Shown one piece after another: positions 1,597-31,837 of a DNA stretch of 64,000 nucleotides (its first letter is position 1; every line of letters begins with the position of its first letter). Under the pieces are notes generated by a model. It was not told the DNA's origin. It worked only from the letters and a program-made list of their open reading frames with translations, and did no database searches. The DNA lies in assembly GCF_900156625.1 (NCBI RefSeq), contig NZ_FTOB01000003.1, positions 744,001 to 808,000 of the forward strand, in the 5' to 3' direction. The translations under genes and the position numbers were made by a program. The DNA is from Zobellia uliginosa. Lineage in GTDB: Bacteria; Bacteroidota; Bacteroidia; Flavobacteriales; Flavobacteriaceae.

Positions 1597-1609
1597 AAAA
1601 AACAAGAAA

Positions 1610-3795: not shown

Positions 3796-3811
3796 CCCTA
3801 AAAATTAAAAG

Positions 3812-17138: not shown

Positions 17139-17306
17139 CCCTTATACAGAACAAAAGGGTCGGCGAAATGGTCAAATTTATATCGACCATTTCCTTTGTT
17201 TCAGTAGTGTTGGAATTGTTTCGGTCCCATATGGGATGAACGCAACAAATCGGAAAAAGCCAAGAACTACTAGTTTACTCAGGGGCTTCATTGGATTGTT
17301 TTTTTA

Positions 17307-17352
17307 CAAAATTAGGCTGGTTTGCAAGATGGGAAATCCCTGTTTTCAGGTA
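17307..17352 (-). promoter_or_regulatory. Regulon box a and promoter of the 16518 lipoprotein gene
   Basis: Palindromic box at 17337-17352 (plus strand TCCCTGTTTTCAGGTA). On the minus strand it is followed after exactly 22 nt by TAATTTTG (17314-17307), a TAnnTTTG -7 element. The leader to the gene is unusually long, about 170 nt. The box lies 25 nt below the stop of the gene at 17377. Confidence 0.75.
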
Positions 17353-17376
17353 TTTTTTAATGTGGTTTAAAGGACT

Positions 17377-17880
17377 TTACTGGGGGTTTCCAATGGCCCA
17401 TTGGGCTTTTTCAATCCATGAATTGTAGTCGTGTACGGACTTTTTAGGAATACTAAAGCTGGGGTTTCCTTTCGTTTTTGTAATGCCCCTACCCTGTTTA
17501 TAGTTTACGATGTACCGTGTGCATTTGTAGACTGTATCCAGTTTTTTATAATTTAAGCCAGTTGGGCTCTGGGAGAAGTTTTCTTCAACCTCAATAATTT
17601 TAATGGGTACTAAGTTTTCCAAATATAAGGTGGTTTTGATACGGCCATAAGAAAGTCCCATTTCTTCCACAATTTTAACGATATCATTTTGTCGGTGCCA
17701 AACCTTTAAACCATAGCCGCCATCTAAATTTCCTTTAGATCCATTAGAAATTGTTATTGTTAATGTGGTGTCGGTTTTTATACGATTGACTTTCTTATTG
17801 ATTTCCTCTAACATCACGTCTTGCCCCAAAGCGCTAATGCTCGTAAGAAGTATCAAGGCGCTAAAAATTTTATTTATCAT
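17377..17880 (-). CDS. Hypothetical secreted protein
   Basis: A 167-residue protein with a signal peptide (MINKIFSALILLTSISALGQ). The mature part is beta-rich: TTLTITISNGSKGNLDGGYGLKVWHRQNDIVKIVEEMGLSYGRIKTTLYLENLVPIKIIEVEE, with the pattern of a small barrel or lipocalin-like fold, then a basic tail. I do not recognise a family. It is transcribed from the minus-strand promoter of the divergent regulon box b (-7 at 17967-17974), giving a leader of about 80 nt. Confidence 0.65.
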   Translation of the reverse strand: MINKIFSALILLTSISALGQDVMLEEINKKVNRIKTDTTLTITISNGSKGNLDGGYGLKVWHRQNDIVKIVEEMGLSYGRIKTTLYLENLVPIKIIEVEENFSQSPTGLNYKKLDTVYKCTRYIVNYKQGRGITKTKGNPSFSIPKKSVHDYNSWIEKAQWAIGNPQ

Positions 17881-17966
17881 TATTAAAATAGGCTTTCCAT
17901 TAATAAAAAAACGCCCCTGTATAGGTGAGATTCGACCTGTCTATTTTCCCTAAAAGGTGTTGGTCG

Positions 17967-18042
17967 CAAACTTAGTTTGGGGCCGAATATAAAATATCCC
18001 TGTTTTTGGGGAATTTATCCTATAAATAAGACAGGATATTTG
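17967..18042. promoter_or_regulatory. Regulon box b, divergent double promoter
   Basis: Box TCCCTGTTTTTGGGGA at 17997-18012. On the minus strand, 22 nt on, TAAGTTTG (17974-17967) drives the gene at 17377-17880. On the plus strand, again after 22 nt, GATATTTG (18035-18042) drives the gene at 18083. The identical spacing on both sides makes this the clearest copy showing that the box works in either orientation. Confidence 0.82.
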
Positions 18043-18082
18043 GCATTCATTTAAACTCGGAATTTTATTAAAAATCCAACTA

Positions 18083-18373
18083 ATGAATACACTTTATATC
18101 ATATTTGTTTCCATAGGGCTACTATACTCTTTATACAGTGCCATTATTTACAATAAACGAAGGTTGGAAGATAAAAAAACGACAAAAGAAGCCTTGGCCA
18201 CCCTGGTTTACCATAGGGAATTGACAGAGGAAGAACGCAGTCTTTTAGATGAGTTACGAAAAGAAGAAGAATTTAAAAAAACACATAAGCGAATAGATGA
18301 TAAAGTCTATTTGATCAAGGGAGCGTATAAAAGACACGGTATCGAAACACGCTATAATACTATGAAAAGCTAA
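18083..18373 (+). CDS. Small single-pass membrane protein
   Basis: A 96-residue protein. An N-terminal transmembrane helix (LYIIFVSIGLLYSLYSAIIY, residues 4-23) is followed by a highly charged cytoplasmic part (RRLEDKKTTKEALATLVYHRELTEEERSLLDELRKEEEF) that should be helical. No family recognised. It starts 41 nt after the plus-strand -7 element of regulon box b and is therefore the first gene of that unit; the 264-residue gene follows after 62 nt. Confidence 0.6.
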   Translation: MNTLYIIFVSIGLLYSLYSAIIYNKRRLEDKKTTKEALATLVYHRELTEEERSLLDELRKEEEFKKTHKRIDDKVYLIKGAYKRHGIETRYNTMKS

Positions 18374-18435
18374 TTCCTATCATAAAATAAAACCGGTCTA
18401 GACCTATTAAATTTTTTGACTCTTAATTAAATATT

Positions 18436-19230
18436 ATGAATATAGATAAAAGAAAGCGATTACACGACAAAAAATATAGCATAATTGGTAAACTAACTTA
18501 TGAAGAGATAATTAACTATTTTATAGAAAGTGAGAATGAAGCTCTTAAATATCAATTTCAAGGTCATTTTTACCCGATGTGGCATTATGAAATTAAAGAT
18601 GTGTTATCAAAGGCTTTAAAAGGTATGGAAGCCGAAAAAATGATTGATGCTTACTTTCATTTAACGAGATTAAATAAATTTATAAAAGTGAAAGAAAAAA
18701 ACTACTCTTATTTATTAAAGGGTGTTGAGAAGGGCTTACATTTATTAGGGAAAGGGTATTATATAAGCGAATCAGACCCAAGTGCTTTATTTCTTCTATT
18801 TGGAGTTATGAATAGTAATGATTCAGCTAAATTATATGATACAAGCCACACCGAGTATTTGAATGCTTTTCGGTTTTATAGAAAAATTAATTCGTACATG
18901 TGTTACCATAGTTTGCGAAAAAAGTTAAAACCTGAATTATACTTAAAAGATTCACTACTCTTAAAAAGAGCGCAAAAAATGACTTCTTTTTTTAATAATT
19001 TTGATTTTAATACCGCGGGAGTATTGGTGTTATTATTAGCCGATACTTCAATGTCATCAAAACAAGCGCTTTTAAAGTATCATACTACAGATTTAGATAG
19101 AAATATTGTTTGGCTTCTTGGAAGTTTTTATAAAGATTTTAATACTACCAAAGCCAATAAACAACTTTTAAAGGACTTGTATGATCATTATCCTTCAGAA
19201 TGGGTAGATGACTATGAATATCATTACTAA
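18436..19230 (+). CDS. Hypothetical helical protein, AT-rich
   Basis: A 264-residue cytoplasmic protein rich in Lys, Tyr and Leu and predicted largely helical (KALKGMEAEKMIDAYFHLTRL; AGVLVLLLADTSMSSKQALLKYH; acidic end SEWVDDYEYHY). Its base composition is clearly more AT-rich than the flanking core genes. The layout recalls helical immunity proteins of contact-dependent toxins, but I cannot assign a family. No box lies directly upstream; it may be read through from the 18083 promoter. Confidence 0.6.
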   Translation: MNIDKRKRLHDKKYSIIGKLTYEEIINYFIESENEALKYQFQGHFYPMWHYEIKDVLSKALKGMEAEKMIDAYFHLTRLNKFIKVKEKNYSYLLKGVEKGLHLLGKGYYISESDPSALFLLFGVMNSNDSAKLYDTSHTEYLNAFRFYRKINSYMCYHSLRKKLKPELYLKDSLLLKRAQKMTSFFNNFDFNTAGVLVLLLADTSMSSKQALLKYHTTDLDRNIVWLLGSFYKDFNTTKANKQLLKDLYDHYPSEWVDDYEYHY

Positions 19231-19520
19231 AAGAATGATATAGATATTCAATTATTCACCAAAAATAAAGAGACGTGTGAAAGTCAAACAATATATGGTA
19301 TAATTTATAAAACGTCTGTACGCTTTTTTTTGTAATAAGAGTAAAAACATGTACTATTAATTGAACTTCAAAGAAGTTTATAATGGCATTGATATTCTCT
19401 AGCCAATAGCTTCTAGTAAACATAGATAAGTCACTTAATTCCATTTCTGGTTTAGTAAAAAAAAAAAATCCTGATATAGGGCGAATTACATTAAAATTAA
19501 TAAAGAAACGAAAACTAAAA
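19231..19520. other. AT-rich spacer before operon c
   Basis: About 290 nt of AT-rich DNA with no convincing gene. A minus-strand frame of 99 codons runs through it but has an unnatural composition (long Phe runs from a poly-A tract at 19458) and would overlap the regulon box, so I treat it as chance. Confidence 0.5.
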
Positions 19521-19566
19521 CCCCTGAAAACAGGGAGTGCCCCTCTCTTTAACATTTATAAGTTTG
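19521..19566 (+). promoter_or_regulatory. Regulon box c and promoter of the 19592-22194 operon
   Basis: Box CCCCTGAAAACAGGGA (19521-19536), then 22 nt, then TAAGTTTG at 19559-19566. The start codon follows 25 nt later. No conventional -33 element is needed to explain the layout; the box is centred about 41 nt before the expected start site, as for a class II activator. Confidence 0.82.
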
Positions 19567-19591
19567 TGCTAATAACACAAACCTACATCTA

Positions 19592-19900
19592 ATGAAGAAA
19601 CTAAACACATTAATTTATGTTGCTTTGGCAATTCACCTTGTTTTATTACTTCTTATTGGTATTGAAGGAAGTAACGATGAAGGTGCAATAAAATTTTTAG
19701 CAATATTTATTTCAATTCCTGTCTCTATAAATTGTATTGGCTTTTGTTTACTGCAATTTACCAGTAACTCTAAGTTAGGAGCCAATGTTTTTATGTACTC
19801 AAGCTACGTTTTTGTGCCAATAGGGTTAATTGGGGTAGCAGGAGCAAAAAAAATATTGGACGATATAAACAAAAAATCAATTACCAATGAAAACCTATAA
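19592..19900 (+). CDS. Small multi-pass membrane protein
   Basis: A 102-residue protein with three hydrophobic helices (LIYVALAIHLVLLLLIGIEG; AIKFLAIFISIPVSINCIGFCLLQF; VFMYSSYVFVPIGLIGVAGA) and a short Lys/Asn-rich tail. No family recognised. First gene of operon c, transcribed from the box c promoter; the next gene follows after 29 nt. Confidence 0.6.
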   Translation: MKKLNTLIYVALAIHLVLLLLIGIEGSNDEGAIKFLAIFISIPVSINCIGFCLLQFTSNSKLGANVFMYSSYVFVPIGLIGVAGAKKILDDINKKSITNENL

Positions 19901-19929
19901 GATCAAAGAAAAATTGCAAAAAAAACTCT

Positions 19930-20295
19930 ATGGTAGCTATTATTGTTATAGGAGGCATTTTATTGATGTTTTTTATAGCTACAGGCTACATATTATTGCC
20001 TATTGTACCTTTATTTATACTATTGATTTTTTTATATTACTGGCATAGAAAAAATGATGTTCTTACTTTTGATACACACCACCTAGAATTTAAATTTACC
20101 CCACTTCAAAGTAAAAGGTTCGTAAAATATAAAACGATAATAGACCTTAAATATAACTCCAAAAAAAAAGTAGTACTTCTTATTACTGAAAAGAAAAAAG
20201 TGAAGCTTCCTGTAGGTGGCATAGAAGATCAAGATGCAGAAGAAATTATCTCCTTTTTAAAAAAACAAGTGCAGCAAAATAATATAGCCGTTTAA
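19930..20295 (+). CDS. Membrane protein with PH-like domain, paralogue of 23381-23773
   Basis: A 121-residue protein: two N-terminal hydrophobic helices (about 1-40) and a small beta domain, LTFDTHHLEFKFTPLQSKRFVKYKTI...KKKVKLPVGGIEDQDAEEIISFLKKQ. The domain has the strand pattern of bacterial PH (YcxB/YdbT-like) domains. The signature L-x-x-D-x-x-H-L-E-F-x-x-x-P-x-Q-x-K-R-x-V-x-Y is shared with the protein at 23381-23773, which belongs to another unit with the same promoter box. Second gene of operon c; 9 nt to the next gene. Confidence 0.65.
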   Translation: MVAIIVIGGILLMFFIATGYILLPIVPLFILLIFLYYWHRKNDVLTFDTHHLEFKFTPLQSKRFVKYKTIIDLKYNSKKKVVLLITEKKKVKLPVGGIEDQDAEEIISFLKKQVQQNNIAV

Positions 20296-20304
20296 AAAAA
20301 ATCT

Positions 20305-21072
20305 ATGAAAAAATTATTTTTAGTATCCATTGTAATGTGCTTTTTTTTAGTGTCACAAGCACAAATCAATGAAATTGGTAAACACGACTTGGAAGAACTT
20401 ACAGAAAAAATTTTTAAAAAGCATTATAAAGAAAACTATACTGCTCATCAAGTGAGAAAATCTAAAAGTCTTTTAGATAGTATCTTTCTTCATACAAACA
20501 CTTCTCATAGTATAGAAATAAAAGCAGACTACACAACTAAGACACCAAGTATTAAAACGGTAGTTTCTAAAGATAGTAATGTACGGGTAGTTACGGCCTA
20601 CCCAAGCAACCTACCCGAAATAAAGATTGTTCAATATTCGAAGAACAAAAAACAGTTGTTTCTTTTTTCAGATTATGTAGTACAATTAAAATTAGAAGGT
20701 GAGGTAAGAATACAAATTGATGCTATTTACAATTTAAGTGACGATACATATTTATTTAGCTGTACCCGTTTTGGGTTTTGGACCAATTCAGAAGATGTGC
20801 ATGCTTTTACGGTTAATCTAATATCAGGTAGTTTTAATTCAAATACCAACATGGTTTTTTCTGAAAAATTGGAAACGTTTTACCCTCAACTTCCTCCTGA
20901 AATTGATACCAAACCTTATTTTAAAATAATCTTCAATAAAGAAGATAAGATACTTACAACCCCTATTCATAAAGATGGAGAAATAAAGGGAATACATCTA
21001 TACAAATACGACAATGTAAAAAAAGAATTTACATCATTGGGCAAAGAAGAAGCTCCCTTAACGCAAAAATAA
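20305..21072 (+). CDS. Hypothetical secreted protein
   Basis: A 255-residue protein with a signal peptide (MKKLFLVSIVMCFFLVSQAQ). The mature part is an alpha/beta mixture with a repeated hydrophobic-polar alternation (VQLKLEGEVRIQIDAIYNLSDDTYLFSCTRFGFWT) and a lysine-rich end. No domain recognised. Third gene of operon c, 12 nt before the lipoprotein gene; probably periplasmic. Confidence 0.6.
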   Translation: MKKLFLVSIVMCFFLVSQAQINEIGKHDLEELTEKIFKKHYKENYTAHQVRKSKSLLDSIFLHTNTSHSIEIKADYTTKTPSIKTVVSKDSNVRVVTAYPSNLPEIKIVQYSKNKKQLFLFSDYVVQLKLEGEVRIQIDAIYNLSDDTYLFSCTRFGFWTNSEDVHAFTVNLISGSFNSNTNMVFSEKLETFYPQLPPEIDTKPYFKIIFNKEDKILTTPIHKDGEIKGIHLYKYDNVKKEFTSLGKEEAPLTQK

Positions 21073-21084
21073 TGTAAAACAGTT

Positions 21085-22194
21085 ATGAAATCATTTTCCT
21101 TAAGCTGTCTATTTTTAGTTTTAACTCTTGTGGGATGTAAAAAGACAGTCCCTGTTGATGAGTATTCAAAATTATATAAGGAAGCAACACATAAATTTCC
21201 CAATACGGTAACTAAAAAGGAACATGCTACGGGATTGGAATTAAACATCCCTTTTCATTACAATATTGAAAATGTAACTGCTCAGTTTAAAGAAGAGTTA
21301 AGAACAAACATCACGCCTTCTGAAATTTTTAAATTAGAATCAAACCTAACAAACTTTAACGGTTTTGGTGGACGTGTTTATTTAATTGAAAACAGTCAAG
21401 CCGATGTAGTTTCAATGGATAAAATATTGAAAAAATATTCATCCCAAATAAAACATATAGTATATCAAGATGCGGAAAGTATCATTTTTTATGATCGATA
21501 TATGGTCTATACAACGGTCTTTTTTCATTATATAGAAAAAGAAAGGGTTCACATTATTTTTGAAAGTACCAATGTTAGTCAGGGAAATAGTGTATATATT
21601 GACGAAAAAGGTGATTCACCATTGTTGTCACAAGCAATGTACGATTTACAGGTTGCTAAAACACTGGTAGAAGAAAGACCTAAGATAAAATTAGATACGG
21701 TATCCTGGAAAACATTTAAAAACAACCTAACAGGTAAGCAACGTCAGGCATATAAAGATGTAGCCTCACAAATAATAAAAGTTGCTGATACCATAGCTTT
21801 AAATACGGCTGATGAAAGTCCTTATGGCGAGATCCTTCCTTATGTAGGAATAATCAAGGTTCAAGACAAAAGCCCTTTGCTAACAATTTTCAATACAACA
21901 AGCTCTGAAAAAGAGATAACCCGATTACTTTCAAAAGAGATTGAAGCTATTGATCATTATACAACTAGAGAATATAAGGTGTTGTTGTTGAATAGAGATA
22001 AAAATGCCTTGGTTTTGGCTTTAGAACCCATCTATTTAACAGCACAAAGTGATTACGTTCACGTTTCTATTAATTTGTATACCAATAAGAAAGGAGAGCA
22101 ATTTTTATTATATGTTTTTCCTGAAGATGAAGCCATGGCTTATTTCTATTCAAAATTTTTAGCTACAATCAAAAATACGAGTGAAGAAGTATGA
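21085..22194 (+). CDS. Hypothetical lipoprotein
   Basis: A 369-residue lipoprotein: signal peptide SLSCLFLVLTLVGCKK with Cys18. The mature protein has several beta-rich stretches (GFGGRVYLIENSQADVVS; YEVLLLNRDKNALVLALEPIYL-like segments) and a central helical region LTGKQRQAYKDVASQIIKVADTI. I recognise no family. Last gene of operon c, with the secreted and membrane proteins before it suggesting an envelope-associated set. Confidence 0.6.
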   Translation: MKSFSLSCLFLVLTLVGCKKTVPVDEYSKLYKEATHKFPNTVTKKEHATGLELNIPFHYNIENVTAQFKEELRTNITPSEIFKLESNLTNFNGFGGRVYLIENSQADVVSMDKILKKYSSQIKHIVYQDAESIIFYDRYMVYTTVFFHYIEKERVHIIFESTNVSQGNSVYIDEKGDSPLLSQAMYDLQVAKTLVEERPKIKLDTVSWKTFKNNLTGKQRQAYKDVASQIIKVADTIALNTADESPYGEILPYVGIIKVQDKSPLLTIFNTTSSEKEITRLLSKEIEAIDHYTTREYKVLLLNRDKNALVLALEPIYLTAQSDYVHVSINLYTNKKGEQFLLYVFPEDEAMAYFYSKFLATIKNTSEEV

Positions 22195-22222
22195 TCAGCA
22201 CTGTTTGATATAGAGTACAAAG

Positions 22223-22577
22223 TTACCAATGAAGTGAAATAATATAATAGCCAACTTCATTATAAAATGAATACAAAGAAAATAGACCTAAACTAATCGT
22301 CACAAAAGCTATAATTTTTTTGGGTGGATTAACAGGGTTTAGAAACGATTGTATTTGTTTTCTACGAGCTCTTGCTTTTTGAATTTGTTGTTTACGATTT
22401 TTTTCTTGCTAGATAATGTCATTTTTTCTGTATCAATTTCTAACTGTGTTAAATGTCTGTTATCTATTCTGCCACAGCTGTTTTAATAGCTTTTGGAGTG
22501 TATTTGGGTTTTTCGTGAAGTATGGTTATTAGTTCTCTATTAGAGTACTCTTTATATAACTTTTGTAATTCATTCAT
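22223..22577 (-). pseudogene. Broken small membrane-protein gene
   Basis: Coding remains are visible on the minus strand. Frame one reads MNELQKLYKEYSNRELITIL and continues to a stop after AIKTAVAE. A shifted frame then reads RHLTQLEIDTEK. A third frame begins ND-II, passes an in-frame TAG and continues EKNRKQQIQKARARRKQIQS with a closing hydrophobic helix KKIIAFVTISLGLFSLYSFY. Two frameshifts and one nonsense codon therefore interrupt a gene of about 118 codons. It is the last element of unit d, 19 nt beyond the lipoprotein stop. Confidence 0.7.
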
Positions 22578-22596
22578 AACTATTTAATATAAAAGC

Positions 22597-23301
22597 TTAT
22601 TTAAAACTCTTTGGGTAGCGATTAATTTGTAGGTCGTTAATGGTAGCATTTTCCCATTGCTTGATATTTAACCCTAAAGCGGTGTTAATTTGTTTTAGCT
22701 TTTCGAGTCCTTCCATTTGATTGTCCTTAGGGCAAGGAAACCCGAACTCGAATACCAATTGTCCTTGTTGGTAAAACCCAAAGAGATACATGGTGTGATT
22801 GGAATTTACCCAGTAAACCACCGCTTTGTATTGGTCATTTTTTTCATATAAACGGGTTTCATATAAGTAGGCCCTATAGGTTTCGTTTAAGGCGTCAGCA
22901 CCGGAGAAAATTACATTGCCGCTCTCCCTATAATAATCTTTTAAGAACAATTCCTGTGGTTGATACAATAGCATGCCGTACATAAAGGATTCTCCCCAAA
23001 CGGAATCTTTGAATATTACGGATTGCTCATCGTATACAGGAGGGTTTTCTTCGTTTGTTTTTTTAAAATCCTTGAATTTTCCCATAAAGGGAAAAACTTG
23101 GTCTAGATTGGTAAAAACATAGGCATCGTCATCGTTATCAATACTCCATTCGTTATCAAAAGGCGCTTTTCGCAACCACGCTTTTAAGTTTTTATTGGTA
23201 AGTTGGGCCACATCATCGTCCCATTCCAAAGGTTTCTTGGGGTTACATGAGATAAAGGAAAGCGTTGTAACAAATAGGAAGAAAAACATTTTGGTTTTCA
23301 T
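22597..23301 (-). CDS. Hypothetical lipoprotein
   Basis: A 234-residue lipoprotein with signal peptide MKTKMFFFLFVTTLSFISC (Cys19). The mature protein is acidic (KPLEWDDDVAQLTNKNLKAW...NDDDAYVFTNLD) with strands such as AVVYWVNSNHTMYLFGFYQQGQLVFEFGFP. No family recognised. Third gene of unit d, 79 nt after the PH-like membrane protein; the leader peptide and company point to the envelope. Confidence 0.62.
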   Translation of the reverse strand: MKTKMFFFLFVTTLSFISCNPKKPLEWDDDVAQLTNKNLKAWLRKAPFDNEWSIDNDDDAYVFTNLDQVFPFMGKFKDFKKTNEENPPVYDEQSVIFKDSVWGESFMYGMLLYQPQELFLKDYYRESGNVIFSGADALNETYRAYLYETRLYEKNDQYKAVVYWVNSNHTMYLFGFYQQGQLVFEFGFPCPKDNQMEGLEKLKQINTALGLNIKQWENATINDLQINRYPKSFK

Positions 23302-23380
23302 GGGTAGGTATTTTTATTCGTTAATAAATTAGGGTCTCGGAGCCCCCTTTTTATTTATAGGAAATTGGCTTTCATGTTTT

Positions 23381-23773
23381 TTAGGAAGTGGTTTTTAATA
23401 GCTCTTCCTTGATGGCGCGTCTGTCGTTTTTATGGAATTCCTTAAGGGGAAGCTTGATTGTTTTAGAGGTTTTCGTAGTAAAAACAAATTTTTTGCCCTT
23501 TTCCGTAAAATAGGTATCCTTTAAATCGCTATACCGCACCATACGCTTGGCCTGTATGGGGCTCAGGCTAAATTCTAAATGATCTTCGTCCAGAATTAAG
23601 GCCTTATGATTCTGTTGCCAAAAATATCTAAAGATTAAAACCAGAAGCGGCGGAATCAGTATAGGGTTGATGCTTCCGGTCTTTTTAAAAAACATAAACG
23701 AGATACCTATAACGACTACAATGGCAACAAGTATGATTTTGTTGGTGTTCGGGTTGAGTTTATATACTTTCAT
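23381..23773 (-). CDS. Membrane protein with PH-like domain, paralogue of 19930-20295
   Basis: A 130-residue protein with two N-terminal transmembrane helices (IILVAIVVVIGISFMFF; PILIPPLLVLIFRYFW) and a C-terminal PH-like beta domain: LILDEDHLEFSLSPIQAKRMVRYSDL, then TIKLPLKEFHKNDRRAIKEELL. The signature matches the 121-residue protein in operon c over its whole domain. Second gene of unit d, 75 nt after the SUKH-like gene. Confidence 0.68.
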   Translation of the reverse strand: MKVYKLNPNTNKIILVAIVVVIGISFMFFKKTGSINPILIPPLLVLIFRYFWQQNHKALILDEDHLEFSLSPIQAKRMVRYSDLKDTYFTEKGKKFVFTTKTSKTIKLPLKEFHKNDRRAIKEELLKTTS

Positions 23774-23848
23774 TATAATTTGTGGTTTGTTCGATAAGTT
23801 TATTGGATGCCAAAATTCCGATTAGCCCGGCGGGGATAAATAATTTTT

Positions 23849-24397
23849 TTAATTGTCATGGTATTCTAGTTTTTGGTGAACCCAGTTTTTAAAGTGCGAA
23901 TCGTTGACATTCATAATTTCGCTTCCGGTTTTGGGTATGGTGACATGAAATGTAGCGCTTACCCATTTTTGAAAATCGGGGTTTATACTTTCATCATCGT
24001 CATCACTGTTCCATTCCTCAGCCGTTTTTGTCATATCTGCACTGCCTATTTCCGAATAGCCTATGGCCAGCATACGCAAAAAATCGACAAAAGAATCGGC
24101 CAATATGTAGAGGGCATCTCCTTCGGAGCCTAGATGCACAATTTTTTGATGGCCATCGTCATCTGCCCATAAGGCGTAGAGCGAACCATCGGGTCCTGTT
24201 CCAAAAACACCGAATCGGTCAGATACATCTTCGGAATCGAACCACGAACCTATACTCTCGCCATCATCTGCCATTAACTCAAAGCCACCGCTGATGGGAT
24301 AATCGTTTTCATCGATCCAGTCGCATAATAGTTTTAATGCTTTTGGCACTGATAGGGTTTTGGGAATGCCATTTTTAATTTCTGAAAAAGTTCTCAT
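23849..24397 (-). CDS. SUKH/SMI1-KNR4-like protein
   Basis: A 182-residue acidic protein. The stretch FGVFGTGPDGSLYALWADDDGHQKIVHLGSEGDALYILADSFVDFLRMLAIGY (about 62-114) is the SUKH-superfamily core: G-T-x-x-x-G-x-x-x-A-x-W, then G-S-E-G, then F-x-x-F-L. SUKH proteins are common immunity proteins against nuclease and deaminase toxins, though many are orphans. It is the first gene of unit d and starts 26 nt from its -7 element. No toxin gene lies nearby. Confidence 0.72.
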   Translation of the reverse strand: MRTFSEIKNGIPKTLSVPKALKLLCDWIDENDYPISGGFELMADDGESIGSWFDSEDVSDRFGVFGTGPDGSLYALWADDDGHQKIVHLGSEGDALYILADSFVDFLRMLAIGYSEIGSADMTKTAEEWNSDDDDESINPDFQKWVSATFHVTIPKTGSEIMNVNDSHFKNWVHQKLEYHDN

Positions 24398-24422
24398 GTC
24401 ATTAATTTGAATTGTGAAGAGC

Positions 24423-24468
24423 CAAAATTATGAGCGGACAAGATGGTATTTATCCCCAAAAACAGGGA
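24423..24468 (-). promoter_or_regulatory. Regulon box d and promoter of the SUKH-like unit
   Basis: Box at 24453-24468 (plus strand TCCCCAAAAACAGGGA). On the minus strand, after 22 nt, TAATTTTG (24430-24423) forms the -7 element; the start codon is at 24397. Confidence 0.82.
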
Positions 24469-24674
24469 TTTCGTTGAAGTGGTTGTTGTAAAAGAAAAAG
24501 AGGGTTATAGTACTTGATACCGTTGAAAGCGGCTTTGTAAATAGTTTTTTGTTTCCCGGTCTCTATACAATCATCAATTTTTATGGAAGTTAGTAGCACA
24601 GGATATTTGATTTATAGTTCAGAAAGTAAATGGTCTACAATGTTCTTTATATTTGGATCTTTATATGAGTGCAA

Positions 24675-25046
24675 TTAAACTAGCGTACTCATGATTTTTG
24701 TATAACTTATATTTGAAGCATCACCTAAACAGAATTTTCCATGTACCCATCGTAGGGTGTTATAATCGTTTTGCCCTAACCAAAGTTCACCGTCTTCCCA
24801 CCATTCAAAAATACTATCATCAGTACAGGAATGAAATTCTAAAACGGCTTCATATCTAAAATTATTAGCTACAGTATATAGATCTAGTAATTCGTTAATA
24901 ATCATTTTATTAACTCCAAAAGCAATTGCGCGATATTTGAGAGCTTCTAACTCTTTTTGTGTAGCTGGAATCAAGGCGCTTCTGTGTTTTTTAGGAAGTG
25001 TGTGCAACAATGCCTTTATTTCATCTTGGTTGTTAGTCGTTTTCAT
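24675..25046 (-). CDS. SUKH-like protein, probably shortened by a stop codon
   Basis: A 123-residue protein with a SUKH/SMI1-like core: LDLYTVANNFRYEAVLEFHSCTDDSIFEWWEDGELWLGQNDYNTLRWVHGKFCLGDA. After the stop at 24675-24677 the same frame stays open and reads HSYKDPNIKNIVDHLLSEL before a second stop at 24612. That segment looks like the natural C-terminus, so a nonsense mutation may have removed about 20 residues. The start overlaps the preceding gene by 14 nt. Last gene of unit e. Confidence 0.65.
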   Translation of the reverse strand: MKTTNNQDEIKALLHTLPKKHRSALIPATQKELEALKYRAIAFGVNKMIINELLDLYTVANNFRYEAVLEFHSCTDDSIFEWWEDGELWLGQNDYNTLRWVHGKFCLGDASNISYTKIMSTLV

Positions 25047-25521
25047 AACTCATGTGTTCGCCAAAAGTGTCAGCACAGGGTTTTAACCATTGCTGCATTT
25101 TAGAGTTCTTTTTTAAATACTGTTTTGGTTCTATTCCTATTGTGCTTATATCAATATGGCGTATAAATTTTACATCGAGTGCTGATTCTAAAGCAGGGAT
25201 TATAAGCGGAAATTTAGTATAAGATGCTAGTTTTGGCCACGGTATTAGTCTGCGATATTTAAGCTGTTGTGATTCTACCGTTAGTCCACTTTGTCGCCAT
25301 TGCGCTATAAAAAGTCGGTCTTTTCGTTCTAGTTGTGCTATCCAATCTCCTGTAATGCGCATGCTTAATGTAAGTTTTAAATCTTCAGGTTTTAATTGGT
25401 TACGGCTGTAAAGCCAATGTTCTATATTTACCGTGCTCATGGTGAGTGTCATGCCCCAATATTCCTTACTGTATTTAAGGTTTAAGGATGAAAGCCAGTT
25501 TTTTAAAGATTCTTTATTCAT
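25033..25521 (-). CDS. Hypothetical protein
   Basis: A 162-residue soluble protein, no signal peptide. Tryptophan-rich and basic (WLSSLNLKYSKEYWGMTLTMS; MRITGDWIAQLERKDRLFIAQWRQSG). It overlaps the lipoprotein gene upstream by 8 nt and the SUKH-like gene downstream by 14 nt, so it is translationally coupled to both. I do not recognise a family; position beside a SUKH-like gene suggests a related cytoplasmic role. Confidence 0.6.
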   Translation of the reverse strand: MNKESLKNWLSSLNLKYSKEYWGMTLTMSTVNIEHWLYSRNQLKPEDLKLTLSMRITGDWIAQLERKDRLFIAQWRQSGLTVESQQLKYRRLIPWPKLASYTKFPLIIPALESALDVKFIRHIDISTIGIEPKQYLKKNSKMQQWLKPCADTFGEHMSYEND

Positions 25522-25900
25522 TAGTTCTATAGTTTATTTTTTTCTTTAAATATATGGTGTCAAGATTACGGGAAGCACCTTTTTTAGTGCCGCCACCTCG
25601 GGGATTGATAAATGAAATATAGGTGGTTTTATAGCCTTCTTTTTTTACAGGGATGTTATATGCAATAGGAGGAGCTTCCATAATGAATAATTCTGAAAGT
25701 AAAAATTGGTTGTAGCGTTTTTCTGGAAGATAAAAATACCCACTACTATCGGTTGTTGTTTCCCCAATGGAACAATTTACAATAGGGTGTTTTTGGATAT
25801 TGACTACGGTTCCATAGAGTGCATGTTGTTCTAATCTAGATATGCAACTAGAGAGTGTTACTAAAAGTACGGCTATGGTGATTGTTTTGTTGCTAGTCAT
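25514..25900 (-). CDS. Lipoprotein with carboxypeptidase-regulatory-like beta domain
   Basis: A 128-residue lipoprotein (signal peptide TIAVLLVTLSSC, Cys19). The mature part is a small transthyretin-like domain: ALYGTVVNIQKHPIVNCSIGETTTDSSGYFYLPE, then IPVKKEGYKTTYISF. This G-x-V-x-D-x-x-G-x-P-I...T-D-x-x-G-x-F pattern is common in Bacteroidetes envelope proteins, often as a binding or scaffold module. It overlaps the following gene by 8 nt; 37 nt separate it from the gene upstream. Confidence 0.68.
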   Translation of the reverse strand: MTSNKTITIAVLLVTLSSCISRLEQHALYGTVVNIQKHPIVNCSIGETTTDSSGYFYLPEKRYNQFLLSELFIMEAPPIAYNIPVKKEGYKTTYISFINPRGGGTKKGASRNLDTIYLKKKINYRTNE

Positions 25901-25937
25901 TTGTCACAGTTGTTATTTTCGAGGGTTCTAATCACTA

Positions 25938-26639
25938 TTATCTAAAAATACCTTTATCAGCCTCTATATAGTTGCATATTTTTTCAAAGTTTGGCCACTG
26001 TTGCACTTTACCCTCATTATCCGTCATGCTTTCTATCAATTCGGGTTGAATGACCTCCGAATAGGGAAAGGCCTTTTGGTCTTGCCAATGGCAGTTTTTG
26101 TCCACTTTATATTCGGGTATTTCAAATCCCCAATAATCATGGGTAAGCAACAAATGGGCGAATTGTTTTTGGGCCCTTATGCGCCCGTGATTGTAGTGGG
26201 CTATAAAGCTATTGGCTACGTGAATGGTTTTGGCTACATAAATGTCGCTACCGGAACAAATGAAATTTTCCACCTCTAGGTTTCCCATTACGACCAAGGA
26301 AGTGTTGATATCTATTTCTGCATCTATGATCAAATGGTCTACGCTAAGGTTACCCTTGACCACCATGCTGTTTTCCGAAATAGAAGACAGGTCCAGTTGC
26401 TCTAAATTCAGATCGTGATCGTAATAGAGTGCCGTGGGTTCGGGCACTTGAAACGCTTGCTCACTTGTGGGCATTGTTTCTAGGTATGCCTCGGGAAGCA
26501 AGCCCTTCAATTCACCGAGCATATCTTCTTGCTCCTTTTTTGCTTTAGGGCTATTGCTGTATTTGTACTCTTCAATTAACCTGAGTGTGGGGAAGTCGGG
26601 AATCTCCTCCGATAGTTTTATAAGGCTCTTTGTTGTCAT
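25938..26639 (-). CDS. Beta-helix/polymer-forming-like cytoplasmic protein
   Basis: A 233-residue protein. The central part repeats short strands with V-x-G-N-L turns (ENSMVVKGNLSVDHLIIDAEIDINTSLVVMGNLEVENFICSGSDIYVAKTIHVANSFIAHYNHGRIRA), the look of a right-handed beta-helix as in bactofilins. Acidic helical tails flank it. No signal peptide. Second gene of unit e, 32 nt after the LRR lipoprotein. Confidence 0.62.
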   Translation of the reverse strand: MTTKSLIKLSEEIPDFPTLRLIEEYKYSNSPKAKKEQEDMLGELKGLLPEAYLETMPTSEQAFQVPEPTALYYDHDLNLEQLDLSSISENSMVVKGNLSVDHLIIDAEIDINTSLVVMGNLEVENFICSGSDIYVAKTIHVANSFIAHYNHGRIRAQKQFAHLLLTHDYWGFEIPEYKVDKNCHWQDQKAFPYSEVIQPELIESMTDNEGKVQQWPNFEKICNYIEADKGIFR

Positions 26640-26671
26640 GGGCGGTATGGGGTATACGTTTTTCGATTCGT

Positions 26672-27412
26672 TTAATTAGAGCAGTTACCATCGATTATAT
26701 CCTGTAAGATGGGATTGTATGCGTTCCCTTGGGTAATAAAACTAATGGTTTCGACATTTTCGGCAAGGCAATTGCCCAAGGCACAAAAGTCGCTTAAATT
26801 GGAATTGAGATATATTTTGATTTCAGAACTATGGGAAAGGCCTTCAAGGGCACTAATATCCGTTAGGCTGTTATTGTTCGTGAGTAAGAGCTCTTGGACT
26901 TTATTTAAGCTGTTGAATCCCTCTAAATTCCCCAGCGCAGGGTTGTTCATTACAGACAGTTGTACACCCACCGTTTCTAAATTTAACAGACCTGATAGGT
27001 CATTAAGAGTGGGGTTATCGTTAATGTTTAAAGCTTCCGAAAGTTCGGTTAAATTTTCAAGTCCGTTTAAAGAGGTCAACTCGGGGTTATTGCTAATTTG
27101 CAAATTATTTAGGCTTGCAATGCGCTCCAATCCCTCAAGGGAGGTCAACACATCGTTATAACTGATAAGGATGCTGCCCTCTACTTCTTTTAGATGGGCC
27201 AATGCGCTTAAATCTTCAACATTTTCCGTATAATGAACGACCAGATTACCACCTATTGTTTTGTAATTCTGTATGCTGGGGTCATCCAAATCCGCTTGGG
27301 AACGAATCTCCAAATCCCCGTCTAAAAAGGTGCTTTCAGCAGTGGTATCATCGTCCGTATTACAAGAAAGGAAAGTGAAAATGGTTACCAGTAAAAGTCG
27401 GGACTTTGTCAT
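26672..27412 (-). CDS. Leucine-rich-repeat lipoprotein (receptor L-domain-like)
   Basis: A lipoprotein of about 246 residues: MTKSRLLLVTIFTFLSC with the lipid Cys at 17. The mature protein has irregular leucine-rich repeats of about 23 residues (EGLERIASLNNLQISNNPEL, SLNGLENLTELSEALNINDN, DLSGLLNLETVGVQLSVMNN) typical of Bacteroidetes surface binding proteins, and a C-terminal capping segment with Cys pairs. I start it at 27412; the longer frame to 27460 would run into the -7 element of its promoter. First gene of unit e. Confidence 0.8.
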   Translation of the reverse strand: MTKSRLLLVTIFTFLSCNTDDDTTAESTFLDGDLEIRSQADLDDPSIQNYKTIGGNLVVHYTENVEDLSALAHLKEVEGSILISYNDVLTSLEGLERIASLNNLQISNNPELTSLNGLENLTELSEALNINDNPTLNDLSGLLNLETVGVQLSVMNNPALGNLEGFNSLNKVQELLLTNNNSLTDISALEGLSHSSEIKIYLNSNLSDFCALGNCLAENVETISFITQGNAYNPILQDIIDGNCSN

Positions 27413-27433
27413 TTTTATGGTTTTTGGTTTTTT

Positions 27434-27479
27434 CAAAAGTAATGTGGCCGTATGGCGCAAAGCTCCCTGAAAACAGGGA
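27434..27479 (-). promoter_or_regulatory. Regulon box e and promoter of the LRR unit
   Basis: Perfect copy of the consensus, TCCCTGAAAACAGGGA at 27464-27479. On the minus strand TACTTTTG (27441-27434) begins after exactly 22 nt. The leader to ATG 27412 is about 20 nt. Confidence 0.85.
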
Positions 27480-27523
27480 TATTGCTTTTTTGGGCAATGC
27501 CCGATGCCATGACGCTTTGCGGA

Positions 27524-30202
27524 CTATCGATTATCGAATAAATCAATTTGTAAAAGATCACTTCCCCTTACTTTTAAATCATAGCCCAGTCTATAAGACA
27601 AAATACGTTCGCCATAATCTTTGTACAGTTTTGGAACAATCTCGGCACCAAATAAAAGTTCCTGATTTTCGTTGTAGGCTTTTAAGGTAACGGTACCGTT
27701 CTGTTTACTTAATTGGGCATATTTCTCCGAAGGAAACCTACGGGAGGTTTTTAGCCAAACGGTGCCCTCTTGCAACTCACCATTATTGAAAACGGCTTTG
27801 TACTTGGGCTTGTTGTTGCTATACTGCACCACTTCGCCCTGCAATTCGCGGTATGCCTCAGTGTAGGTAAGCAGGCGTTTACCCTCTAGATCAAAAACCT
27901 CTTTCTTTTGGGTGTGTTCATTGAGATAGGTGGTAACGGTTTTAATGTTTTGGTAATTGTTTTGAAACTTAATTTCGGTCAGCCTGGTGTCTTTAACGAT
28001 GCTTCCGTCTTTATATATTTTTTCGTTGCCATACGAGTCGACCAAAACACCGTCGTAGGGCTCGTTGTTTTTATATAGCAGACGATAGGTTTTACCGGTA
28101 TTTTTATCGTAAGATGTGGCATAGCCTTCGCGTTTGCCATCCTTATACAAGACTTTCGATATCTCCTTTCCGGTTTTGTCATATGTAATGGTATAGCCAT
28201 CTTTTACACCATTTTTGTAGTTCTTCTCTAAGGTCTTGGTATTCTTTGCCTCGTAGGATGTACGGATGCCCGTCCATTTTATAAAGGTACCGTGCTTTTT
28301 ATCGTTGAGATACTGTCCTTCTTCCTTAATGGTTGTTCCATTCCCGGCGTAACGTATATACTTCCCGTGTCTTTTTCCCTCTTTAACCTCGTATTTTCTA
28401 TAGCTGTTCTTGTCGTACACTACACCAGACCACGGTTTTCCGTTTTTAAAAACAGCCTTGCCGATCAGGGTGCCTTGTTCAGAGTAAAATGCCGATTCGC
28501 CATTGGCATTGATAACTTCGCGAAGCACGTTCTTATGGCCTTTTATGCTCCTGTCATACTCCATCCGGTAGTCTTTACGGCTTACGAGTTCGCCATTTTT
28601 TTGGGTGGATATTTCCTTAATCGCATCGGATTGGGAATGATACTCATAAAAAGTACCTGTCTGGGTCGTATAATCGAACTCTGAAATTTGTTCGCCTTTT
28701 TCGTTGAAGAAGACACCCTTTTCCTTCTCTTCGGTTTCCGGATTATAGAATAGCTCGGATCGTTTGTTTCCGTTGCTAAAATAGAAGGTGTGCTTTATGG
28801 GTTTTTCCTTTTCATTGTATATAATGTCTTGCCTGAAGCAATTGTCATCCCTATAATTAAATAAGGTTTTTTTGGTCTTTTTGTAGTTGTTGAAGGTGGT
28901 CTTCTCCTCGATTCTGTTTTTATGGTCGTGGAACAACATGGTCCCTTCCACGGGAATCGGGCGATATGACCCATTCTCCAGTTTGTCTGGAACCCCCATA
29001 TCTTTGCTAGTGGCTACCTTTAATGTTGCAATCGGTTTTCCTATGGTATCGTAGTATGTGATGATAGAGTCTTTTAATGCGGCAAATGTCTTTTTGGAAT
29101 TAAGGTAAGGATAAAGGGCTTTTGTAATAATGCTGTTTTTATAGGAGACAATTTGGTTCCTATCATTTCGAAGTGTACCATTTAACACCCCGTTTTTTTG
29201 GGTAAACTCCCCTAGTTTTTTACCATCATCGGTATAGGAGACGGTTTTTACAATTTTATTATGGTCGTAAAATCGCTCACGTATGAGAATGGAGTACGTA
29301 TTGAAATCTTTACTATTGACCAGGTTCTCGGCCTCGTAAGTTTCAATTCTTTTAACGGTTCTTTCGTCGGTGTAAAATTTAAAGAGCTTACCGTGGTATA
29401 TCGATAATTGATCAAGTTCGCCCTTATACTGCAAGGTCCCTATCACTTTGCCCTTTTCGTCAAAGTAGGTCTTCATTTTTTGTATAGTATCAAAACTACT
29501 ACGTTGTTGTCCGTTGGGGTAATAGGCGTAAGCATACCATTCAAAGCCATCTTTGATTCTCGCAATTCGCTTAGGGCGCATGGGCATCTTGTAATAGCTT
29601 ACCGAGGTGCCGTAGTCATTGCCAAAGTCCAATGCATGGTAGGTACCCAATAACTTTCCTTCGGTATCATAGAACAGCTTTTTGTAAACGCTGCCCTGCT
29701 TATAGAAATATTCCTCGCGGGCACCCTTTTTGTCGGTATCGTAAATAATTTCCTTTATTGGGGAATTGTCCTTGTAGGCAACTTCCCGTATATGGTAGAT
29801 GCAATTTTCTTTTGGTGTTTCTTTGGTTTCGGGGATGTCTTTTTTATGGGTATTCTTTTTACATGTATCGTACTTATAGTAAGTACATAGGCCGTTTAAT
29901 TTATTGTTTGTATAAGTTTCGGTTTGCATTGCTTTACCATCCCTACGGTACCAAGTGGCCTTTCCTTCGAGGATCACGCTGTCCTTAAATTTGGAAAGAC
30001 CGGTCATTTGCAGGGTACCGTTCAGGTAATAGTCGTTAATGCGATAAAGGCTAGAGGTTTCCTTCTTAACCGGCGGCCTGTAATAATGTGCGTTGTCTTT
30101 GGTGGTTTTGTTCCAATTATGGTCAAACCATAGGGTGTCTTGTTGGGCCAAAGCGTTTATGGAAAAAGACGCTATTAAAAGAAGCGTTGTATATAATTTC
30201 AT
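27524..30202 (-). CDS. Giant secreted MORN/YwqK-repeat protein
   Basis: An 892-residue protein with signal peptide MKLYTTLLLIASFSINALAQ. The first part (QDTLWFDHNWNKTTKDNAHYYRP) is shared with the protein at 39072. Most of the rest is some 20 or more MORN_2/YwqK-type repeats of about 22-25 residues: Y-x-x-G-x-x-x-G-x-x-x-x-Y-x-x-x-G-K-x-I/L (for example NYKNGVKDGYTITYDKTGKE; LYKDGKREGYATSYDKNTGK). Such repeats form extended beta structures; in YwqK-type proteins they are annotated as antitoxins without firm proof. Last gene of unit f, 27 nt after the gene at 30230. Confidence 0.8.
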   Translation of the reverse strand: MKLYTTLLLIASFSINALAQQDTLWFDHNWNKTTKDNAHYYRPPVKKETSSLYRINDYYLNGTLQMTGLSKFKDSVILEGKATWYRRDGKAMQTETYTNNKLNGLCTYYKYDTCKKNTHKKDIPETKETPKENCIYHIREVAYKDNSPIKEIIYDTDKKGAREEYFYKQGSVYKKLFYDTEGKLLGTYHALDFGNDYGTSVSYYKMPMRPKRIARIKDGFEWYAYAYYPNGQQRSSFDTIQKMKTYFDEKGKVIGTLQYKGELDQLSIYHGKLFKFYTDERTVKRIETYEAENLVNSKDFNTYSILIRERFYDHNKIVKTVSYTDDGKKLGEFTQKNGVLNGTLRNDRNQIVSYKNSIITKALYPYLNSKKTFAALKDSIITYYDTIGKPIATLKVATSKDMGVPDKLENGSYRPIPVEGTMLFHDHKNRIEEKTTFNNYKKTKKTLFNYRDDNCFRQDIIYNEKEKPIKHTFYFSNGNKRSELFYNPETEEKEKGVFFNEKGEQISEFDYTTQTGTFYEYHSQSDAIKEISTQKNGELVSRKDYRMEYDRSIKGHKNVLREVINANGESAFYSEQGTLIGKAVFKNGKPWSGVVYDKNSYRKYEVKEGKRHGKYIRYAGNGTTIKEEGQYLNDKKHGTFIKWTGIRTSYEAKNTKTLEKNYKNGVKDGYTITYDKTGKEISKVLYKDGKREGYATSYDKNTGKTYRLLYKNNEPYDGVLVDSYGNEKIYKDGSIVKDTRLTEIKFQNNYQNIKTVTTYLNEHTQKKEVFDLEGKRLLTYTEAYRELQGEVVQYSNNKPKYKAVFNNGELQEGTVWLKTSRRFPSEKYAQLSKQNGTVTLKAYNENQELLFGAEIVPKLYKDYGERILSYRLGYDLKVRGSDLLQIDLFDNR

Positions 30203-30229
30203 GGAGTTGGTATTAATGGTATTCGTTTT

Positions 30230-30931
30230 TTATAAACTATCATCTGGGTATAGGGCATCGTACAGTTCGTTAAAGAGGTGTACGGACCAAAAATAACGTT
30301 CGGGCTGATTGCCTAGAATAAGTTCCATTTCTTCATTTTCTTTAGAAAAGTAGACCAAGTAGTCTTTCTGATACGATTTATAATAAAATATATCCAGTCC
30401 TACTTTTATACCAAGCATAGGCAATATCTCCTGTTTAAGGTTTTCTTGATTTATATGGCGCACATGGTACACAAAGGGTTTTGTGGGAAAGGGGTGCTCG
30501 TCATCATAAGAAGAAGAACTAAAACGCATGTCGCTTACAATTTGACGTAATTTTTTATAGTCTATCTGTGGGAAATAAAACATTGTGTTCTCAATACTGC
30601 TCAAGGTGCGTTCCCATAGCTTCTGTAAAGGGTCATCGGGTTTTAAAAGCAGGGTGTCGTTTGTGCTGTTATTTAAAAAATAATCTCGGGTATTTAGTGG
30701 TTTTGATTTATAATGGATATAAAGTTGTTCCGGGGCTGTATCGTTCCACAAAAAAGAGCATTCTTCATCAGGGTTGTTTATTGCTATCAAGTAATTTTGT
30801 GTTTTTTTCCCAAAAAGACGTTTAAGGATATTTTTATGTTCATCTTTTTTCTCTTTAAGAATCTCTACATATTCTTCCAGATTATTGTAAAGCCAATAGG
30901 TGGTGCAGTCCTGTAACAAGTCGCTGTTCAA
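30230..30931 (-). CDS. Hypothetical protein
   Basis: A 233-residue soluble protein without signal peptide; aromatic-rich (TTYWLYNNLEEYVEILKEKK; FYYKSYQKDYLVYFSKENEEMELILGNQPERYFWSVHLFNELYDAL). No family recognised. The only start in reach is TTG at 30931, 23 nt after the upstream gene, which suggests translation dependent on that gene. Second gene of unit f. Confidence 0.58.
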   Translation of the reverse strand: MNSDLLQDCTTYWLYNNLEEYVEILKEKKDEHKNILKRLFGKKTQNYLIAINNPDEECSFLWNDTAPEQLYIHYKSKPLNTRDYFLNNSTNDTLLLKPDDPLQKLWERTLSSIENTMFYFPQIDYKKLRQIVSDMRFSSSSYDDEHPFPTKPFVYHVRHINQENLKQEILPMLGIKVGLDIFYYKSYQKDYLVYFSKENEEMELILGNQPERYFWSVHLFNELYDALYPDDSL

Positions 30932-30954
30932 TATCTTAAAAAAGTTCTTGGAAT

Positions 30955-31554
30955 TTATGTAGCGGTCTGTAAAACAAACAGGGGTTTCAGGTCTTTTTTT
31001 TCGTATAGCAAAGGGAGCAGTTCAAAAGCATCCTTTATAGGTATGCTGGGGTCTGCAATAGTATCGGAAACCTTAAAATAAGAATTGTTCAAGCATAGTT
31101 TTTGTAATTCTTTAAGGTCGTTGAATGCTACTGGCAAGAACACTAGGTTATCGCCGTCGATATCGATAATCAAAACCTTTTGTTGGTGTTTTTCAAATAG
31201 CCCATTAAGATAATTATAACGCGCTACTTCGTCGGTTTCGAGTTCTTCGTTGGTGTGGTCATAGGGAACTTCAATGTGATGGAAAAATTTATAAATGTCC
31301 AAAGCATCATACATATCAAAACAATAGTCGTTCACATATACCAACTCCAATTCGTCTAGTTTATCGATGATGAAAAGGGTGATTCTGTCTTGAGGGGTTA
31401 GTTTTTTCTCAGGATACAGCTTTTCAAAGTCAATTTTTTTTTCAAGATAAAAGACGTCTTCGAGTTCGGCTTTTAATTCGGGGTTAAAATGTGATTTAAA
31501 AAGTAGTTCACAGATGCGTGTTAATGTGTTTAACGACTGCTCTTTGAGGTTCAT
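30955..31554 (-). CDS. Hypothetical protein
   Basis: An acidic, helical cytoplasmic protein of about 199 residues (MNLKEQSLNTLTRICELLF; NDYCFDMYDALDIYKFFHHIEVPYDH; KVLIIDIDGDNLVFLPV). I do not recognise a family. I start it at ATG 31554; the frame runs to 31602 but that would cross the -7 element of its own promoter. First gene of unit f, which continues with the 30230 gene and the giant MORN protein. Confidence 0.6.
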   Translation of the reverse strand: MNLKEQSLNTLTRICELLFKSHFNPELKAELEDVFYLEKKIDFEKLYPEKKLTPQDRITLFIIDKLDELELVYVNDYCFDMYDALDIYKFFHHIEVPYDHTNEELETDEVARYNYLNGLFEKHQQKVLIIDIDGDNLVFLPVAFNDLKELQKLCLNNSYFKVSDTIADPSIPIKDAFELLPLLYEKKDLKPLFVLQTAT

Positions 31555-31581
31555 ATGAGTAGGTGTTGTTAATTTGAACCA

Positions 31582-31627
31582 CAAAAATGATATATAGGCC
31601 AAGAGGATTTATCCCTATTTTCAGGGA
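31582..31627 (-). promoter_or_regulatory. Regulon box f and promoter of the MORN unit
   Basis: Box at 31612-31627 (plus strand TCCCTATTTTCAGGGA). After 22 nt on the minus strand comes CATTTTTG (31589-31582), with TTTG in the same position as in the other copies but C instead of T at the first place. The start codon is at 31554. Confidence 0.78.
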
Positions 31628-31792
31628 AATATCAGCCTTTTATGAGGTAGATTGGCAATTGGGGCAGTATGGGATAAATCCTGGGTGCGCCCCTCATGGG
31701 GGGGGTATTGGGGGACGTTTTCATGTGATCGGTACGAGCAGTACGCCCCAGTCAGTTTGGGGATGTGTTGGAATTGGGAACGTCCCCACCCT

Positions 31793-31811
31793 GCCCCCTT
31801 CAAAGGAGGGA
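31793..31811. repeat. Intergenic CCCCCTTCAAAGGGGG-type hairpin, copy 1
   Basis: A short inverted repeat with a TTCAAAG centre (GCCCCCTTCAAAGGAGGGA). Similar hairpins occur at 51423-51440 and 53287-53306, always between genes. Not followed by a strong T-run, so a dispersed element is as likely as a terminator. Confidence 0.5.
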
Positions 31812-31837
31812 TTGTTGTGAGACCTTTTTATGTATGG

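Follow-up and report, generated by a model that had tools for sequence, protein, structure and literature searches.

A palindromic operator at a fixed distance from seven promoters in an apparently mobile island of Zobellia uliginosa

We analysed 64,000 nucleotides of the Zobellia uliginosa genome (NCBI RefSeq assembly GCF_900156625.1, contig NZ_FTOB01000003.1, positions 744,001 to 808,000), referred to here as the window. It contains an 18.2 kb island in which copies of a palindromic box accompany a set of promoters (Table 1). A histidine kinase (HK) and a response regulator (RR) of the NarL/LuxR type are encoded at the left end of the island. The remaining genes include the remnant of an igaA homologue and specify, among others, lipoproteins, secreted-looking proteins and small membrane proteins. 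Protein families are numbered with the prefix F.

Six 16-nt palindromes are present exactly where the original prediction had placed them. The predicted consensus describes these boxes well, save that the box at 17337 has TACC in one half. At up to three mismatches, the full consensus matches the window six times, compared with 0.80 matches expected, and six matches were reached in none of 100 shuffles. A short form that had also been proposed, TCCC-N8-GGGA, is not significant alone. It has 24 matches at up to one mismatch versus 20.65 expected, and 24 matches were also reached in 21 of 100 shuffles. Box 17997 lies between two divergent promoters and serves both, so six boxes yield seven promoters. 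Each has a gap of exactly 22 nt, as had been claimed, between the box and an octamer ending in TTTG; this was confirmed by eye and by script. TTTG occurs at spacing 22 in 7/12 box flanks and at every other spacing from 0 to 63 no more than once. At a background frequency of 0.0081 for TTTG, the probability of such clustering at any of the 64 spacings is approximately 1e-10. The octamers are those originally listed and follow the TAnnTTTG form of the Bacteroidota housekeeping promoter, with TTTG in all seven and a leading TA in five.

Table 1. Coordinates of the island, its promoters and its genes in the window
Feature	Position	Strand	Description
Island	13608..31824		18.2 kb; sister genome G006 has 86 bp in its place, with alignable flanks
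RR, 210 aa, predicted box binder	13656..14288	-	receiver and LuxR/GerE helix-turn-helix (HTH); Pfam Response_reg 3.8e-24, GerE 2.3e-17
HK	14285..16378	-	TPR region, one transmembrane segment (TM; 440-458, hydropathy), HisKA_3 and HATPase_c (Pfam)
Putative lipoprotein, family F04, first gene of HK-RR unit	16518..17138	-	lipobox-like LASC in translation; in 5/5 islands
Promoter P1	17307..17352	-	box 17337-17352, 22 nt, TAATTTTG 17307-17314; position suited to autoregulation
Secreted-looking protein, family F12, under P2	17377..17880	-	no Pfam family above cut-off
Promoter P2	17967..18012	-	box 17997-18012, 22 nt, TAAGTTTG 17967-17974
Promoter P3	17997..18042	+	divergent from P2, box common to both, 22 nt, GATATTTG 18035-18042
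IgaA-homologue remnant, 96 aa, under P3	18083..18373	+	by alignment; orthologues of 410-415 aa from common start in four other islands
Unknown-family protein F13	18436..19230	+	no Pfam match; 87-92% identity in two islands
Promoter P4	19521..19566	+	box 19521-19536, 22 nt, TAAGTTTG 19559-19566
Unit P4: small membrane proteins F06 and F01, secreted-looking F14, lipoprotein F15	19592..22194	+	97-99% in M. thermophilus
Unit P5: weak SUKH-like protein, small membrane protein, lipoprotein	22597..24397	-	SMI1_KNR4 E 0.0063, below cut-off
Promoter P5	24423..24468	-	box 24453-24468, 22 nt, TAATTTTG 24423-24430
Unit P6: LRR lipoprotein, 233-aa protein, three small proteins	24675..27460	-	Recep_L_domain 3.7e-9
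Promoter P6	27434..27479	-	box 27464-27479, perfect consensus, 22 nt, TACTTTTG 27434-27441
Unit P7: DUF6630-like gene and 892-aa secreted MORN-like protein	27524..31602	-	DUF6630 19.4 bits, below cut-off 27
Promoter P7	31582..31627	-	box 31612-31627, 22 nt, CATTTTTG 31582-31589

The arrangement is local. We scanned the 5.3-Mb genome for CCC-N8-GGG-N24-ANNTTTG without mismatch. Sites at random positions would have spoken against a regulon, and this is not what was found; the pattern occurs eight times and six of these sites fall at 17.9-31.6 kb of the window. The window's seventh promoter differs by one mismatch, and the two sites outside the window do not fit a stricter version of the box. Combined with the 22-nt gap, the stricter box has six sites in the genome, all in the window. 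Across the family, this stricter pattern was detected in 10 of 249 genomes (17 matches), and reversed control patterns gave 4 matches in total. When one mismatch was allowed, a loose promoter pattern was at chance level genome-wide (50 + 46 matches, control 58 + 45). Since the short and loose forms are both at chance level, the signal requires the fuller consensus or an exact match. We conclude that the regulon is local to one island and not genome-wide.

In a blastn comparison of the window with G006 C1:4932000-4943000, alignment stops at 13607 and restarts at 31825. The island starts 48 bp past the RR stop codon and ends approximately 200 bp past the last box. Its G+C content is 0.361, compared with 0.424 and 0.408 for the left and right flanks. 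An RR of the type shared between islands (about 80% identical) occurs in one of nine genomes of the genus; the remaining genomes carry 52-54% paralogues. The island ends show no convincing direct repeat, and a plasmid search using 20 kb of the window as query found no match. The island was apparently gained horizontally and carries its own regulator.

Four further genomes encode an RR of about 80% identity (79-83%) and a related island. These are G018, Maribacter thermophilus, Tenacibaculum larymnensis and a Tenacibaculum sp. (two contigs). In each, the island was taken to extend from the outermost promoter to the RR gene, and boxes scoring at least 13 of 14 were collected from both strands of the stretches read. 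Of 31 such boxes in the five-island comparison, 25 lie in islands and all have one or two 22-nt promoters, 30 in total; the six outside have none. The next most frequent TTTG spacing has four counts. The distance between operator and core promoter is thus fixed at all seven window promoters and at 25/25 island boxes. The 30 promoters are not independent, because spacers are near-identical within each of two sets, Zobellia with G018 and Maribacter, and the two Tenacibaculum islands. The spacers of the two sets have no evident common sequence, yet serve the same gene families. Hence, spacer length is kept but sequence is not. Families F00, F10, F09, F08, F07, F05 and F04, together with HK and RR, are found in all five islands. 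Families F11, F06 and F01 are found in four and other cargo varies. Cargo proteins are up to 99% identical across genera. Beyond the island, window positions 357-4489 hold a run of TetR-like, nitroreductase, alcohol dehydrogenase and DJ-1-like genes. All five genes have relatives (77-90%) near the G018 island and the first three have them near that of M. thermophilus, which makes the neighbourhood partly common to these genomes. There, they sit at the opposite end, as if the island were inverted.

The same box accompanies RR homologues elsewhere. We inspected the best 80 of 278 RR-homologue loci (46-81% identity), which provided 146 distinct box flanks. The -7 element NANNTTTG is found 46 nt from the box in 49 flanks and 22 nt from the box in 16, five of which come from three island loci; the next best spacing has four. 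One or other promoter form is present at 53/80 loci. A sequence-reversed control gave two boxes and no spacing match. In the 46-nt form, CAC occupies positions 9-11 after the box in 39/49 cases and GTG is the commonest triplet at positions 20-22 (15/49). These mark a second dyad, with its axis 24 bp downstream of the box axis and 30.5 nt before the -7 octamer, as in the 22-nt form. This proximal dyad is an incomplete palindrome, with 0.47 of pairs matching at its best axis and 0.42 at another, and we therefore call it weak. Among 74 first downstream proteins, 26 belong to a small membrane protein family, always with 46-nt spacing, and 10 to a lipoprotein family. A further 15 belong to a family of 655-747 aa, 13 at 22 nt and 2 at 46 nt, and both members scanned are TPR histidine kinases. 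Viewed by promoter, a 657-747-aa protein of one cluster is the first gene product for 13/26 of the 22-nt promoters. In Chitinophaga and Parapedobacter, a box promoter of the 46-nt form lies immediately after the RR gene (loci L169, L171, L176, L180, L182, L188 and L189). The operator hence extends beyond Flavobacteriia.

The strict 22-nt pattern also follows the regulator between genomes. A close RR was defined by at least 50% identity, or more than 300 bits in a second search; a 48% homologue in G021 was scored absent. Among 55 genomes, four of which were chosen because they bear the pattern, it is present in 9/15 with a close RR and 1/40 others (p = 7e-6). For the 31 unselected genomes the values are 6/8 and 0/23 (p = 4e-5). 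Box and spacing thus follow the RR family into other genera, which supports the predicted control by the adjacent RR. Likewise, the comparisons support the proposal of a regulon with a class II-like operator, which may stand in the place of the -33 element.

In class II activation the dyad lies near -41, and NarL/LuxR-family activators at this position abut or replace the upstream promoter element. The island boxes resemble such sites. They differ in being joined to the Bacteroidota -7 element, in having one exact spacing at the sites seen and in having a related 46-nt form with tandem strong and weak dyads. We consider it likely that the island is a horizontally transferred, self-contained regulon, running from its HK, through its RR and the box, to seven class II promoters. 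The TPR kinase would phosphorylate the RR. An RR dimer would bind the palindrome TCCCTGaaaaCAGGGA, centred at about -41; the palindrome axis precedes the first base of the -7 octamer by 30.5 nt. Bound RR would recruit the housekeeping RNA polymerase of Bacteroidota to TAnnTTTG promoters that have no -33 element. All seven units would be driven in this way, including the operon of the RR itself; P1 lies upstream of the HK and RR genes, so positive autoregulation is likely. The IgaA-like membrane protein, subject to the same control and truncated in this genome, would restrain the kinase as negative feedback. The effectors (lipoproteins, secreted and small membrane proteins, SUKH- and LRR-like proteins) might protect the envelope or immunise the cell against toxins of neighbours.

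Several observations weigh against this account. Activation is read from operator position only. No 22- or 46-nt promoter was seen at 27/80 of the RR loci, some of which are incomplete. The strict pattern is missing from 6/15 genomes with a close RR and present in 1/40 without. In 5/9 genomes having both (G007, G033, G063, G147 and G245), the site is not adjacent to the RR gene; such sites could be either a distant target or chance. Because igaA is truncated in Z. uliginosa itself, the brake cannot be general. Structure predictions have low confidence, with mean pLDDT of 40.5 for lipoprotein F07 and 38.9 for the IgaA-like F05, and the AlphaFold models were unusable. Finally, the absence of a -33 element is soft evidence and says little; the -7 consensus is as described for Bacteroidota, and no -33 motif was identified in Flavobacterium johnsoniae (PMC7366714).

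The genome also encodes a chromosomal paralogue (C22:102156-102791), 54% identical to the island RR and preceded, at its operon, by a similar box, CCCCTGAAAACGGGGG. Hence, cross-binding could occur, which is a further point against the main account. The HTH segment SKHT[VI]E[TS]YRK is common to nine RRs, and the segment is near-identical in the paralogue orthologues of sister genomes. Could the paralogue be the main reader of the boxes, with the island RR a spare or competitor? We regard this as unlikely. Every genome searched that has two or more strict 22-nt sites also encodes the RR of about 80% identity; two of the eight paralogue-bearing sister genomes were in that search, and G007 has one site and G001 none. 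Furthermore, the paralogue HK-RR operon has a promoter of the 46-nt form in 9/9 genus genomes (some with one mismatch). Two 46-nt sites recur in the genus and this is one of them. The other (G000 C22:61851-61919) is approximately 2 kb from a LuxR-type RR gene (C22:64056-64664; 30% identity) and is possibly a second target of the paralogue.

Promoter-near palindromes are commonly repressor sites, so the boxes could instead block RNA polymerase. We judge this very improbable. A repressor does not need a single exact spacing, and a -33-like TTG is found near the expected position in only 4/30 island promoters. The linked regulator is of the NarL/LuxR type, and the 46-nt form sets its second dyad in the same register. 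The inverted repeats are near-perfect and one lies between divergent promoters, as hairpins in RNA or DNA (terminators or repeat elements) might, with the spacing inherited as part of a repeat. However, the spacer is fixed in length and unrelated in sequence between units and between genus groups, the box is upstream of the promoter, and the exact promoter pattern with this box is found nowhere else in the genome. We give the hairpin explanation almost no weight. A regulon controlled by the island RR remains the reading that we prefer.

In Z. uliginosa, the P3 gene product is a remnant, with approximately 927 bp lost relative to Maribacter, a 7-bp overlap at the junction and an open downstream gene; a Pfam scan of its 96 residues gave no PF07095 match. 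The four intact island orthologues match PF07095 at 107, 116, 112.7 and 108.7 bits (cut-off 25), over positions 2-359 of the 702-residue profile. They also match a solved IgaA domain (4uzm, E = 4e-4) and are 22-29% identical to annotated or presumed IgaA of Proteobacteria. A search for the family found it in 1/60 relatives (G018) and 0/395 genomes of the phylum. Hydropathy identifies five TMs in IgaA order in three of the four proteins and six segments in the fourth, and the gap between TMII and TMIII is three residues in the Maribacter protein. The loop between TMIV and TMV has about 15-20 residues, rather than the 295-residue periplasmic domain, and thus departs from full IgaA architecture. 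In E. coli, the N-terminal cytoplasmic domains of IgaA repress the relay and the periplasmic domain receives RcsF (PMC5978795, PMC7418988). With cytoplasmic domains present and a short loop, the repressing part is retained and the receiving part is not. We conclude that the island protein is an IgaA homologue but not a full IgaA. For comparison, the IgaA of Eleftheria terrae has unrelated genes as neighbours.

The island can be compared with the Rcs phosphorelay of Enterobacterales (RcsF-IgaA-RcsC-RcsD-RcsB). Common to both are a NarL/LuxR-type RR, an IgaA homologue that keeps the IgaA order of TMs and cytoplasmic domains, and envelope proteins as likely targets. Conversely, the island kinase is a plain TPR histidine kinase, the targets lie within one mobile island, the RcsF-receiving domain is missing and the operator differs from the RcsB box. 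A Pfam scan of 21 proteins, confined to the island, gave no match to RcsD/HPt or RcsF at E<=0.1. The RR scores 88.7 bits against the RcsB equivalog, far below the cut-off of 235. Hence, the system may work like Rcs without being a member. We tentatively consider a mobile, Rcs-like envelope-sensing module, in which a minimal IgaA lacking the RcsF-receiving domain would restrain the TPR kinase and NarL-type RR, identical class II promoters would switch on an exchangeable envelope or immunity set, and the brake has been lost here. In this reading, a cargo unit brings its own operator and promoter, and one swapped between species would immediately come under the resident regulator. This is possible, but our doubts exceed our confidence.

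FimS/FimR of Porphyromonas gingivalis is another Bacteroidota HK-RR pair, with direct promoter binding by the RR (PMC1974823); for the island RR such binding is predicted. The FimS model weakly matches the TPR and kinase parts of the island HK. However, the match scores 53.4 bits against an equivalog cut-off of 600, the FimS/FimR targets are fimbriae, and a search of PMC1974823 for mention of a palindrome or a consensus found none.

A two-component regulon with class II promoters is a known kind of system. As far as the literature searched extends, the operator, the geometry common to the two promoter forms, the island form and the link to IgaA are new. The 14-mer CCCTGAAAACAGGG does not occur in the 5.39 million papers of that literature. 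Titles and the beginnings of abstracts likewise described no regulon with this signature, in agreement with the original claim. To our knowledge, little is known of the operators of NarL/LuxR-type regulators in Bacteroidota. The operator, the geometric rule that places a dyad axis 30.5 nt ahead of the -7 element, the tandem variant and a candidate regulator can now be tested together, in a regulon that moves as one unit with its regulator. An IgaA homologue beside a NarL-type two-component system outside Enterobacterales bears on the origin of IgaA-type control and on the role of IgaA without RcsF.

What the cargo does is suggested by its composition. Lipoproteins, secreted and small membrane proteins, weak SUKH and DUF6630 likeness, an LRR protein and the SUKH-1 protein of G018 lead us to infer a role in envelope protection or stress, or in immunity to toxins of neighbours. 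The SUKH-like proteins of the original prediction stand as a weak likeness, since the window match is below cut-off (17.5 versus 25.4 bits). SUKH-1 is strong in the G018 cargo alone (E = 2.5e-19); a Tenacibaculum protein joins the family by clustering. Rather than an envelope-stress response, the island could be a polyimmunity locus under regulation, holding an exchangeable stock of proteins that confer immunity to toxins of neighbours. Zhang et al. 2012 (PMC3482391) describe such loci, which are variable in content and contain SUKH and LRR proteins, and cargo differs between the islands too. Unlike them, the island has several separately promoted units, one operator, a dedicated two-component system and IgaA. 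The 21 proteins scanned include no recognised toxin or recombinase, and most have no immunity annotation. In addition, several families occur in four or five of the five islands, unlike a free store. We think polyimmunity quite possible, if a little short of an even chance. PADLOC, run on 10 island proteins, identified no defence family; the lone match (E = 0.0093) was judged to be chance.

Some gene models deserve comment. The true start of the LRR lipoprotein is probably the ATG near 27412, downstream of the P6 promoter, and that of the first P7 gene is probably near 31554. For the protein originally described as a giant MORN protein, the 892-aa window copy has no Pfam match. Its Tenacibaculum orthologue matches MORN_2 below cut-off (19.1 versus 29.6 bits) and DUF3598_N barely above (22.1 versus 22 bits), so the MORN label is a weak one. 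The window also encodes, outside the island at 39072-41159, a 695-aa MORN_2 protein. Over 235 residues it shares approximately 31% identity with the orthologue of the 892-aa protein in G018, and no 22-nt-spaced box was detected at its gene. The DUF6630-like gene (30230-31602), a single open reading frame of 451-454 aa in the islands of G018 and both Tenacibaculum genomes, comprises two open reading frames in the window and has a different split in M. thermophilus.

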